This document shows, one piece after another, positions 2,173-4,097 of a DNA stretch of 64,000 bases (positions are counted from its first letter, which is position 1; each line of letters starts with the position of its first letter). The stretch covers positions 558,001-622,000 of the forward strand of contig NZ_VTFU01000001.1 of assembly GCF_009192735.1 (NCBI RefSeq), read 5' to 3'. The translations under genes were made by a program, and so were the position numbers. The stretch is from Arthrobacter gandavensis. GTDB lineage: Bacteria > Actinomycetota > Actinomycetes > Actinomycetales > Micrococcaceae. The notes beneath the pieces are model-generated. The model made no database searches, was not told the origin of the DNA, and saw only the letters and a program-made list of their open reading frames with translations.

Positions 2173-2200
2173 TTGACACATCGGCGACAGCACGTAGGCT
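2173..2200 (+). promoter_or_regulatory. Strong sigma70-type promoter upstream of candidate RNA / ppm1 leader
   Basis: TTGACA at 2173-2178 and TAGGCT at 2195-2200 are separated by 16 bp. It is among the best matches to the housekeeping consensus in this window. It lies 80 bp after the amidohydrolase stop and about 415 bp before the ppm1 start, so the transcript would begin near 2207 with a long non-coding stretch. Confidence 0.6.
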
Positions 2201-2206
2201 AGGGGA

Positions 2207-2505
2207 ATCGCAGGCCGGACTTCGGGGAACCGAATCCGCTGCGCCGGAATAATCAGCACACCGCACAGCTGTGTGAGCGCGTACCCGGTGGAGTGTGCCA
2301 GGTATCAGCCAGGTATCGACCGGGGCGCAGTGCGCACCAGGGCAGGCTTGACCGTCAGTAGAAAACAGTCCCGGCACAGCCGGGTCTGGCCCGAAGGCGG
2401 AAGGGCCTGCCCTTGTGTGTGCCGGTCCTCATCCGGTCCCGCTCTTGTCTGCTCCGGGCGCCAGGAGAGCTGGACGCCGGGAATGGTGTGACCGGCACGG
2501 CACGC
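2207..2505 (+). ncRNA. Candidate structured RNA (small RNA or very long ppm1 leader)
   Basis: No convincing ORF fills this stretch, yet it is rich in self-complementarity directly downstream of a strong promoter. Seen: a 5' hairpin (CGGA, C, TTCGG, loop GGAA, CCGAA, TCCG at 2216-2238); two tandem 11-mers beginning GCCAGGTATC at 2297 and 2308; a long rod in which GACCGG 2318-2323 pairs CCGGTC 2422-2427 and AGGGCAGGC 2339-2347 pairs GCCTGCCCT 2405-2413; and an inner hairpin CCCGGC/GCCGGG at 2370-2384. A bubbled rod of about 300 nt recalls 6S or mycobacterial Ms1 RNA, but no RNase P, tmRNA or SRP signature was recognised. The identity is inference. Confidence 0.4.
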
Positions 2506-2509
2506 AAGT

Positions 2510-2541
2510 TTGACGCCGGCGCTGAACGCCTCCCATATACT
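2510..2541 (+). promoter_or_regulatory. Possible second promoter close to ppm1, with an inverted repeat at its -10
   Basis: TTGACG at 2510-2515 and TATACT at 2536-2541 could form a promoter, though the 20-bp spacing is long. The -10 sits inside an inverted repeat TCCCA-TATAC-TGGGA (2531-2545). Downstream, the leader can form two hairpins: GGGGT-GCGA-ACCCC (2555-2568, a GNRA tetraloop) and GGCTGCG/CGCAGCC (2572-2591). Confidence 0.35.
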
Positions 2542-2614
2542 GGGAAGTCTTGCCGGGGTGCGAACCCCACAGGCTGCGTTTACGCGCAGCCCATCCCCTA
2601 TGAAAGGCGAATGC

Positions 2615-3343
2615 GTGCGCGTCCTGACCATCATCCCGACCTACAACGAGATCGAGTCCCTCCCCAAGACGCTTCAGCGGCTGCGGGCGGCGGTGCCCGA
2701 CTCGGATGTTCTGATCGCGGACGATAACAGCCCGGACGGCACCGGAGCGTACGCCGACGAGATCGCCGCCGCCGACCCTCAGGTCCATGTGCTGCACCGC
2801 AAGGGCAAGGAAGGCCTGGGCGCAGCTTACATTGCCGGTTTCCGCTGGGGCCTGGAGCGGGACTACGACGTCTTGGTGGAGATGGACGCTGACGGTTCCC
2901 ACAAACCCGAGCAGCTGCCCCTGCTGCTGGAAGCTGCCGAAGCCGGTGCGGATCTGGTCATCGGTTCCCGCTGGGTTTCCGGCGGTTCCGTGGTCAACTG
3001 GCCGCTGCACCGCAAAATCCTGTCCCGGGGCGGCAGCTTGTACTCCCGCCTCATGTTGGGGATCGGCGTCCGCGACATCACCGCCGGTTACCGCGCCTTC
3101 CAGCGCACCACCCTCGAGCGGCTGGACCTCAACGCGGTGGAGTCCGTCGGGTACGGATTCCAGGTGGACATGACCTTCCGGGTGGCCCGTCTCGGACTCA
3201 CCATCAAGGAAGTCCCCATCACTTTCGTTGAACGCGAATTCGGCGCATCCAAAATGAGCGGCAACATTGTTTTCGAAGCGATGGCCAATGTCACCAAGTG
3301 GGGTCTGGGCGCCCGCTGGAACAAGCTGACGCGGCGCGGCTAG
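2615..3343 (+). CDS. ppm1: Polyprenol monophosphomannose synthase
   Basis: This GT2-family glycosyltransferase transfers mannose from GDP-mannose to polyprenyl phosphate at the cytoplasmic membrane face, supplying lipid-linked mannose for protein mannosylation and glycolipids. The N-terminus VLTIIPTYNEIESLP, the DDNSPDGTG nucleotide-binding segment and VEMDADGSH (DxD-like) are typical. At 242 residues it is the single-domain form, without the Lnt fusion seen in some mycobacteria. GTG at 2615 is chosen because AAAGG ends 7 bp before it; ATG at 2600 has no such site. It is convergent with rbpA, as in many actinobacteria. Confidence 0.85.
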   Translation: MRVLTIIPTYNEIESLPKTLQRLRAAVPDSDVLIADDNSPDGTGAYADEIAAADPQVHVLHRKGKEGLGAAYIAGFRWGLERDYDVLVEMDADGSHKPEQLPLLLEAAEAGADLVIGSRWVSGGSVVNWPLHRKILSRGGSLYSRLMLGIGVRDITAGYRAFQRTTLERLDLNAVESVGYGFQVDMTFRVARLGLTIKEVPITFVEREFGASKMSGNIVFEAMANVTKWGLGARWNKLTRRG

Positions 3344-3380
3344 AGCACCTCCGGCCCCGCTCCACGAGACCCGCCGGATA

Positions 3381-3428
3381 TGACAAAGGGAGGGCGGCTG
3401 CCAATTGGCAGCCGCCCTCCCTTTGTCA
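3381..3428. terminator. Bidirectional terminator, 48-bp perfect palindrome
   Basis: Two 24-base arms, starting TGACAAAGGGAGGGCGG and meeting at AATT, form a perfect palindrome between the convergent ppm1 and rbpA genes. A-rich and T-rich ends (AAA/TTT next to the GC stem) allow it to stop transcription in both directions. Confidence 0.85.
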
Positions 3429-3498
3429 TTGCATCAACTTCCGTCATTGCATCAACTTCGGCGGCAGCCCGCGTGGCGGGGCCCCCGAACCGTGGACG

Positions 3499-3852
3499 CT
3501 ACTTGGATGCTGAAGCGCGCTCTCCGCGGCGTTCACGCAGGATCGTGAGGCGGTCCTGGAGGATCTGCTCGAGCTCTTCAATGCTGCGCCGCTCCAGCAG
3601 CATGTCCCAGTGCGTACGGACCGGCTTGTCATTGCTGGTGTCGGGCTTCTCGCCATCCACCAGGAGGGCTTCCTTGCCGGTCTTGGAAACCCATACCGGA
3701 GGAACGTCGGCCTCGGCGGCGAACGTCACAAATACCCGTTCGCCATCCTCGCAGCGGTACTCCACCCGCTGGCGGGGAGCCGGCTCAACACCGGATTCGG
3801 TCTCCATGCTCTGCGCGCCGAGGCGCATACCCCGCAGGCTGCGATCGCTCAT
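3499..3852 (-). CDS. rbpA: RNA polymerase-binding protein RbpA
   Basis: RbpA binds the sigma factor and RNA polymerase and stabilises open complexes at actinobacterial promoters. The 117-residue product contains the hallmark THWDMLLERRSIEELEQIL sigma-interaction helix, a central beta-rich core domain with a YRCEDGE segment, and the N-terminal DRSLRGMRLGA basic tail. ATG at 3852 is preferred because AGGGAG lies 5-7 bp upstream and it gives the standard MSDRSLRG start. It is monocistronic and convergent with ppm1. The 290-bp upstream gap has a TATAAT hexamer and one copy of the TTATGTCAAC motif. Confidence 0.93.
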   Translation of the reverse strand: MSDRSLRGMRLGAQSMETESGVEPAPRQRVEYRCEDGERVFVTFAAEADVPPVWVSKTGKEALLVDGEKPDTSNDKPVRTHWDMLLERRSIEELEQILQDRLTILRERRGERASASK

Positions 3853-4097
3853 CTTTTCTCCCTCTTCAGTCCGAAGGATCCCCGAGGGACCCATCTTGTA
3901 GTGCTGTTGGTGCCGTTCCGCCCCGGCACGCTCACGTTTATGCTGCCGAACGGCCGGACGCAGCGTCTGCGTCCAAGCCGCGGTCCCGCCGGTGGCCCGC
4001 TTATGTCAACGCCGATTCCGCGCCAAATGTTCCGGCACGGGGTCCGCGACCGGTTTCAGCGGGCGGGCCCGGGGGGACAGACCCCGGCAAACAACCC

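Follow-up and report, generated by a model that had tools for sequence, protein, structure and literature searches.

Between an amidohydrolase gene and ppm1, Arthrobacter gandavensis probably carries a stand-alone gene for a structured RNA, one whose family is not in Rfam 15, is wide in the Actinomycetota and is predicted to act in trans. As read from the sequences compared, this gene is a cassette in which an inverted repeat lies upstream of a primary-sigma-type promoter and of an RNA shaped as a rod, the asymmetric internal loop of which hardly varies, and the predicted fold is kept by extensive compensatory change. The putative RNA is usually single-copy and lies usually, but not necessarily, by lnt/ppm1; in two genomes the RNA and its promoter are inverted together. 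A preliminary description of the same DNA had proposed a promoter-driven structured RNA at this place, and the proposal is now strongly supported, compensatory changes included. Positions given below are those of the window, by which we mean the whole stretch of DNA that was analysed, 64,000 nucleotides in length, and the features to which the text refers are the following.

451 to 2094, + strand: amidohydrolase gene (Amidohydro_3), the upstream neighbour of the RNA gene; open reading frame with a match to Pfam PF07969 (E 9.1e-67)
2133 to 2164, no strand: imperfect inverted repeat, operator-like and conserved, upstream of the promoter; TGACCTGC (2133-2140) and CCTAGTCA (2157-2164)
2173 to 2178, + strand: -35 element TTGACA of the RNA gene; read from the sequence, and in 28/28 intergenic regions of the genus
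2195 to 2200, + strand: -10 element TAGGCT, TAGTCT in some relatives; read from the sequence and from the intergenic regions of the genus
2207 to 2430, + strand: predicted RNA of about 215-224 nt, both ends being inferred; fold z -4.8, promoter position, and conservation that drops behind the rod
2210 to 2242, + strand: 5' hairpin with a GNRA loop (GGAA); folding and alignment
2298 to 2319, + strand: tandem CCAGGTATCAG / CCAGGTATCGA with the GCCAGG motif of the 5' domain; sequence and class-wide GCCAGG enrichment
2331 to 2421, + strand: rod; basal helix 2331-2349 with 2403-2421, second helix 2352-2356 with 2396-2400
2357 to 2365, + strand: conserved internal loop, 5' side, AGTAGAAAA; the loop AGA and the later AAC are identical in 34/34 rows of alignment A7
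2366 to 2388, + strand: CAG...CTG helix and variable apical hairpin; alignments A1 and A7
2389 to 2395, + strand: conserved internal loop, 3' side, GCCCGAA; alignment A7
2536 to 2541, + strand: -10-like element TATACT of ppm1 (unmapped), distinct from the RNA promoter; ATATACT in 28/28 intergenic regions of the genus
2615 to 3343, + strand: ppm1 (glycosyltransferase family 2), the downstream neighbour; Pfam PF00535 (E 3.4e-32)
3499 to 3894, - strand: rbpA, RNA polymerase-binding protein, in the conserved neighbourhood; Pfam PF13397 (E 4e-42)

Promoter and Upstream Inverted Repeat

The promoter had been read as TTGACA-16-TAGGCT, and TTGACA, the 16-nt spacer and TAGGCT or TAGTCT are found in 28/28 of the intergenic regions examined in the genus, in an alignment from which the duplicates L001, L030 and L031 were left out and genome G013 is absent; this conservation favours the element as a promoter. 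A strict consensus promoter scan of the window listed no promoter here, since TAGGCT has too few consensus letters. A simple promoter pattern matches only 3/9 of the upstream regions of the families f36 and f31 (L165, L291 and L294).

Upstream of the promoter, TGACCTGC and CCTAGT[CG]A are present in 28/28 intergenic regions of the genus, and this conserved inverted repeat suggests the site of a transcription factor, which would set the level of the RNA. In family f31 the repeat ahead of the RNA promoter is closer to a palindrome, TGACCTGC...GCAGGTCA, and several rows of family f6 have TGACCTGC...CAGGTCA upstream of the RNA. As an observation in its own right, TGACCTGC...GCAGGTCA or variants of it precede the RNA promoter in Arthrobacter, f6 and f31 and in part of Streptomyces (L168, L319 and L323, as well as L070 and its relatives).

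Fold, Rod and Internal Loop

Positions 2207-2430 fold with a z-score of -4.8, none of 200 shuffles being as stable, and the longer stretch 2207-2510 gives -4.5, again with none of its 100 shuffles as stable. Most of the structural elements named beforehand were recovered. The 5' GNRA-like hairpin has the loop GGAA, and GNRA is kept in 8/8 rows of alignment A2, that of the window included (by eye); the tandem 11-mers (2298-2308 and 2309-2319) are present and contain GCCAGG; and the long bubbled rod with its inner hairpin is real and, according to the genus alignment and the fold, is the conserved core. Both hairpins described in the ppm1 leader (2548-2592) can form, the second being kept with changed letters across the genus, as judged by eye. 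The further hairpin at 2454-2485 can also form, but it is not conserved, as the two closest relatives of the window are the only other rows to have this stretch, and the letters differ. For the stretch of about 415 bp described as having no ORF, the ORF list holds mechanical ORFs on both strands.

The asymmetric internal loop of the rod, AGUAGAAAA / GCCCGAA, is identical in 28/28 rows of the genus, and among the 34 diverse loci of alignment A7 (described below), 9 of the 27 columns shown around the loop are identical in 34/34 rows. Beside the lower helix of the rod, AGUA faces GAA in an arrangement which we take to resemble the bulged-G (loop-E) module. In the 5' domain, GCCAGG is found in the 330 nt preceding the core at 121 of the 166 loci that were usable out of 171, compared with 31.6 expected and a maximum of 46 in 100 simulated sets; the motif could serve as a second contact. 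Behind the rod no terminator of general occurrence was seen. In some Micrococcaceae loci (L052, L054, L055, L062 and L063) a run of T, resembling an intrinsic terminator, follows right behind the rod, a trait that is not general.

Compensatory Change and Strand

Compensatory base changes among relatives, which the preliminary description had itself chosen as its test, are present in three alignments. The genus rod alignment (A1) consists of 26 distinct rows and was made by plain MAFFT, not fitted to a model; 97.4% of its cells are paired, 56 cells show double changes vs 19.9 after shuffling, covariation is 0.301 vs 0.152, and in none of 500 shuffles are the observed pairing, double-change cells or covariation reached. 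Counted by pairs, the signal in A1 is weak, since 7 pairs with double changes stand against 5.8 shuffled and 104/500 shuffles reach 7. In the two wider alignments, the statistics of which lean towards the structure model because both were fitted to it, double changes are seen in 22/25 pairs vs 11.0 shuffled (A4: 27 rows from 31 loci, with L013, L024, L059, L066 and all antisense matches left out; 0/500 shuffles reach 22) and in 23/25 pairs vs 19.3 shuffled (A7: 34 loci chosen for diversity, without the L060 antisense row; 3/500 shuffles reach 23, which is weak as a bare count), while A7 also has 94.1% of its cells paired and a covariation of 0.717, vs 0.207 when shuffled and at most 0.136 with slid partners. 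G-U cells outnumber A-C cells, by 66 vs 13 in A7 and 50 vs 1 in A1, which indicates that the RNA corresponds to the promoter strand.

Distribution in Actinomycetota

Within the genus, blastn found the RNA in 28/29 genomes and a covariance model found it in the 29th, at a syntenic place and with an E-value of 0.0013, so that all 29 sampled genomes carry it. At wider ranks, covariance models whose E-values were taken per genome and are roughly calibrated gave matches in 102/245 family genomes and 15/297 order genomes when built from the genus (R1), in 67/297 order genomes and 19/394 class genomes when built from 27 sequences (R2), and in 141/296 class genomes when built from 34 sequences (R3), 138 of them with one match and 3 with two. 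Applied to a sample of the phylum, R3 matched 19/198 genomes, 7 of which lie outside the class; the motif pattern was located in 6 of these 7, and the match in genome G906 (L345) lacks this confirmation. When 38 genomes that had no earlier match were searched more sensitively, five gave one at E ≤ 0.1, all showing the motif and all by lnt, ppm1 or the amidohydrolase gene, and 33 of the 38 still had no match; since this search added five genomes, the genome counts are lower bounds.

A pattern scan of named genomes gave at least 119 stretches, a count that includes many related Streptomyces, and all 80 titles listed are Actinomycetota by name, among them Streptomyces, Kribbella, Nonomuraea, Micromonospora, Nocardiopsis and Arthrobacter; contig_28 of Arthrobacter sp. 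Edens01 is among the matches listed that carry the RNA. The pattern also matches eight viral stretches, and a phage origin was considered and rejected: tblastn found none of the query genes there, and the flanks are unpaired by eye.

Genomic Context: Leader or Separate Gene

The same-strand downstream gene is lnt, or ppm1 if there was no lnt match, in 110 of the 119 pattern loci listed (2 of these more than 800 nt away); of the other nine, seven have less than 1 kb of DNA and two have nothing found. Among the class regions the lnt/ppm1 alignment starts, which are not mapped gene starts, lie within 750 nt downstream in 44/52. The upstream gene varies, being the amidohydrolase gene, a kamE-like gene or others. 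A constant same-strand neighbour of this sort is how a cis leader would look, and a leader was the explanation favoured at first; it was dropped as a general one on account of inversions, insertions and other loci.

In family f36 the RNA is inverted relative to the amidohydrolase gene and lnt in 4/5 regions, and the inverted loci L165 and L291 keep TTGACA-19-TACGGT in the inverted sense; a further f36 genome from the sensitive search (G582) has the RNA inverted too. In family f31 an opposite-strand TauE-like gene (by Pfam for one region) lies directly downstream in 3/3 regions, with lnt beyond it in two, the third region ending before any lnt match. The remaining exception among the 8 of 52 class regions has its lnt alignment start 1.1 kb away. 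Outside the class, no match to lnt, ppm1 or the amidohydrolase was found in the six regions with a located motif, and in the four of these whose surroundings were examined the neighbours are opposite-strand GGDEF and DHDPS genes (L347), an opposite-strand cupredoxin gene (L348), an opposite-strand ABC-transporter gene (L346) and a same-strand amino-oxidase-like gene (L344). A leader would always lie upstream of lnt/ppm1, on the same strand and in the same transcription unit, an arrangement that f36, f31 and the outside-class loci do not have. Whether inverted or displaced, the RNA keeps its fold, and it is thus not an obligate leader.

A separate promoter-like element stands before ppm1, namely TATACT in 28/28 Arthrobacter regions and TATGGT in the majority of the nine rows listed for Streptomyces, with none apparent in L175 and L184. 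In genus g6 only about 40 nt separate the RNA from ppm1 and no promoter is apparent between the two; a leader role is possible in single lineages such as this one. In the Arthrobacter window rbpA is convergent to ppm1, and in a Streptosporangiaceae MAG (L197) the RNA is a neighbour of rbpA, a search for lnt and ppm1 giving no match there. Between ppm1 and rbpA of the window, 3380-3427 is a long near-perfect inverted repeat, TGACAAAGGGAGGGCGGCTGCC AATT GGCAGCCGCCCTCCCTTTGTCA, which is probably a two-way terminator; right behind it, at 3423-3458, there is a short tandem repeat around TGTCATTGCATCAACTTC / CGTCATTGCATCAACTTC.

Comparison with Known RNA Families

Rfam 15 has no match at gathering score in the whole window, and six further loci searched at E ≤ 1 gave two matches, both below the cut-off and off the RNA. 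The best weak match in the window was to c-di-GMP-II-GAG (RF03169), with 23.6 bits against a cut-off of 40 (E 0.039, 2416-2506); a c-di-GMP riboswitch was rejected, the match being below the cut-off and in a stretch that is not conserved in the genus, and it reads as chance.

The RNA had also been called 6S/Ms1-like, and of this the general shape stands, while Rfam gives no match and the presumed Ms1 locus of a Streptomyces-like genome lies elsewhere and scores at background. The likeness to 6S RNA (ssrS) is that of a rod with a bubble and an apical stem, and cmscan found no match to 6S (RF00013) at E ≤ 10 in the window region or at E ≤ 1 in the six other loci. The 6S bubble is larger and far less conserved in sequence, whereas the loop of the new RNA is small and almost invariant. 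6S RNA binds the sigma-70 holoenzyme and templates pRNA, and Ms1 binds the RNA polymerase core.

According to PMC9130861, Actinobacteria lack 6S RNA. Ms1 (MTS2823, scr3559), as described in PMC4191392 and PMC9130861, resembles the new RNA in its length of about 230-300 nt, its primary-sigma-type promoter and its rod, in which the bubble and flanking helices are most conserved; that the central bubble of the rod is the most conserved part is also found for the new RNA in A1 and A7. The two differ in locus, Ms1 lying by a HAD-IB hydrolase gene and the new RNA mostly by lnt/ppm1. In the genome of the window a single HAD-IB match passes the cut-off; it is on another contig with about 100 bp free on each side, which by eye leaves no room for Ms1 beside it. 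In the Streptomyces-like genome G546 the new RNA is at C1:1,706,848 and the presumed Ms1 locus (L105) near C1:4,845,000; with filters off, R3 reaches at best 12 bits on L105, which is background, vs 46.8 and 56.4 bits for true members, the identity of this intergenic region as Ms1 resting on synteny by eye, with no match of the published Ms1 primer there. Orthology with Ms1 was rejected on the locus, the lack of room at the HAD-IB gene and the background score at the presumed Ms1.

CoRP of Corynebacterium, as described in PMC11077062, is an RNA polymerase-bound RNA of an actinobacterium where Ms1 was not found, and it is set apart by that description as an RNA of 516 nt between tRNA genes with close homologues only in Corynebacterium. 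Our literature search found no paper naming the new RNA; supplementary tables, which lay outside that search, may list a Streptomyces copy as an unnamed transcript.

Alternative Explanations

It is rather unlikely that the RNA binds RNA polymerase, with a 6S/Ms1 function in an unrelated sequence and, by analogy, as a functional counterpart of the 6S RNA that PMC9130861 reports as missing from Actinobacteria. The rod with its conserved bubble, the length of about 220 nt, the promoter of its own, the mostly single copy, the absence (by eye) of room for Ms1 by the HAD-IB gene and the nearness of rbpA would suit this function, but the loop is smaller and far more conserved in sequence than the bubble of 6S. 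Streptomyces carries the RNA, and yet RIP-seq of S. coelicolor, as reported in section 26 of PMC11077062, places scr3559 and scr0792 on RNA polymerase and finds HrdB with no strongly bound RNA, the new RNA not being among the polymerase-bound RNAs named there. A riboswitch-like leader of an lnt-ppm1 operon, in which the loop would bind a ligand or protein and control read-through or translation, is unlikely: the same-strand lnt/ppm1 neighbour behind a varying upstream gene and the short distance to ppm1 in g6 speak for it, and the inversion in f36, the opposite-strand gene in f31, the loci outside the class and the second promoter-like element before ppm1 speak against it. The preliminary description had left a leader of ppm1 as an equal option, which as a general explanation is not supported.

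A base-pairing small RNA, the conserved loop strands of which would pair with mRNAs, appears quite improbable. Loop letters that are almost invariant on both strands would be expected of it, but helices close the loop at either end and its strands are conserved together, so that a tertiary structure suits better than a free seed. A Ro-associated Y RNA is extremely improbable. It was suggested by a resemblance of letters only, the 3' loop strand GGUCCGAAGG being presumably similar to human Y1 RNA, and there is no Rfam Y RNA match; TROVE (Ro) matches were found in 9/44 RNA-bearing genomes vs 1/36 genomes without an RNA match, leaving none in 35/44 RNA-bearing genomes, that of the window included, and this distribution largely refutes a Y RNA or YrlA.

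Proposed Function and Significance

The explanation we prefer is that of a stand-alone trans-acting RNA, which would be transcribed on its own and end soon behind the rod. The rod would hold out its loop for a protein or RNA partner to dock on, by analogy broadly as 6S, Ms1 or Y RNAs do, while the variable apical hairpin and the 5' domain would adapt the RNA in each lineage and a transcription factor at the inverted repeat would set its level. Only tentatively do we go further and regard it as an ancient, essentially single-copy trans-acting RNA of an uncatalogued family, older than the split of the classes, which may dock a core cellular partner via its loop-E-like loop; it would have a housekeeping rank like that of 6S, SRP RNA and tmRNA, but within a single phylum, some lineages of which would have lost it later. 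Judged from comparison of sequences, it would be new as an RNA family; single transcripts of it may already be listed, and its function could be of a known kind.

For experimenters there is a defined locus with a promoter and a loop, and cis models can be told from trans models at the inverted and displaced loci. Such a nearly unvarying loop, in an RNA that is mostly single-copy and kept across classes, would point to a conserved RNA-protein or RNA-RNA contact, of which we found none named in print, in a phylum that includes the main antibiotic producers.
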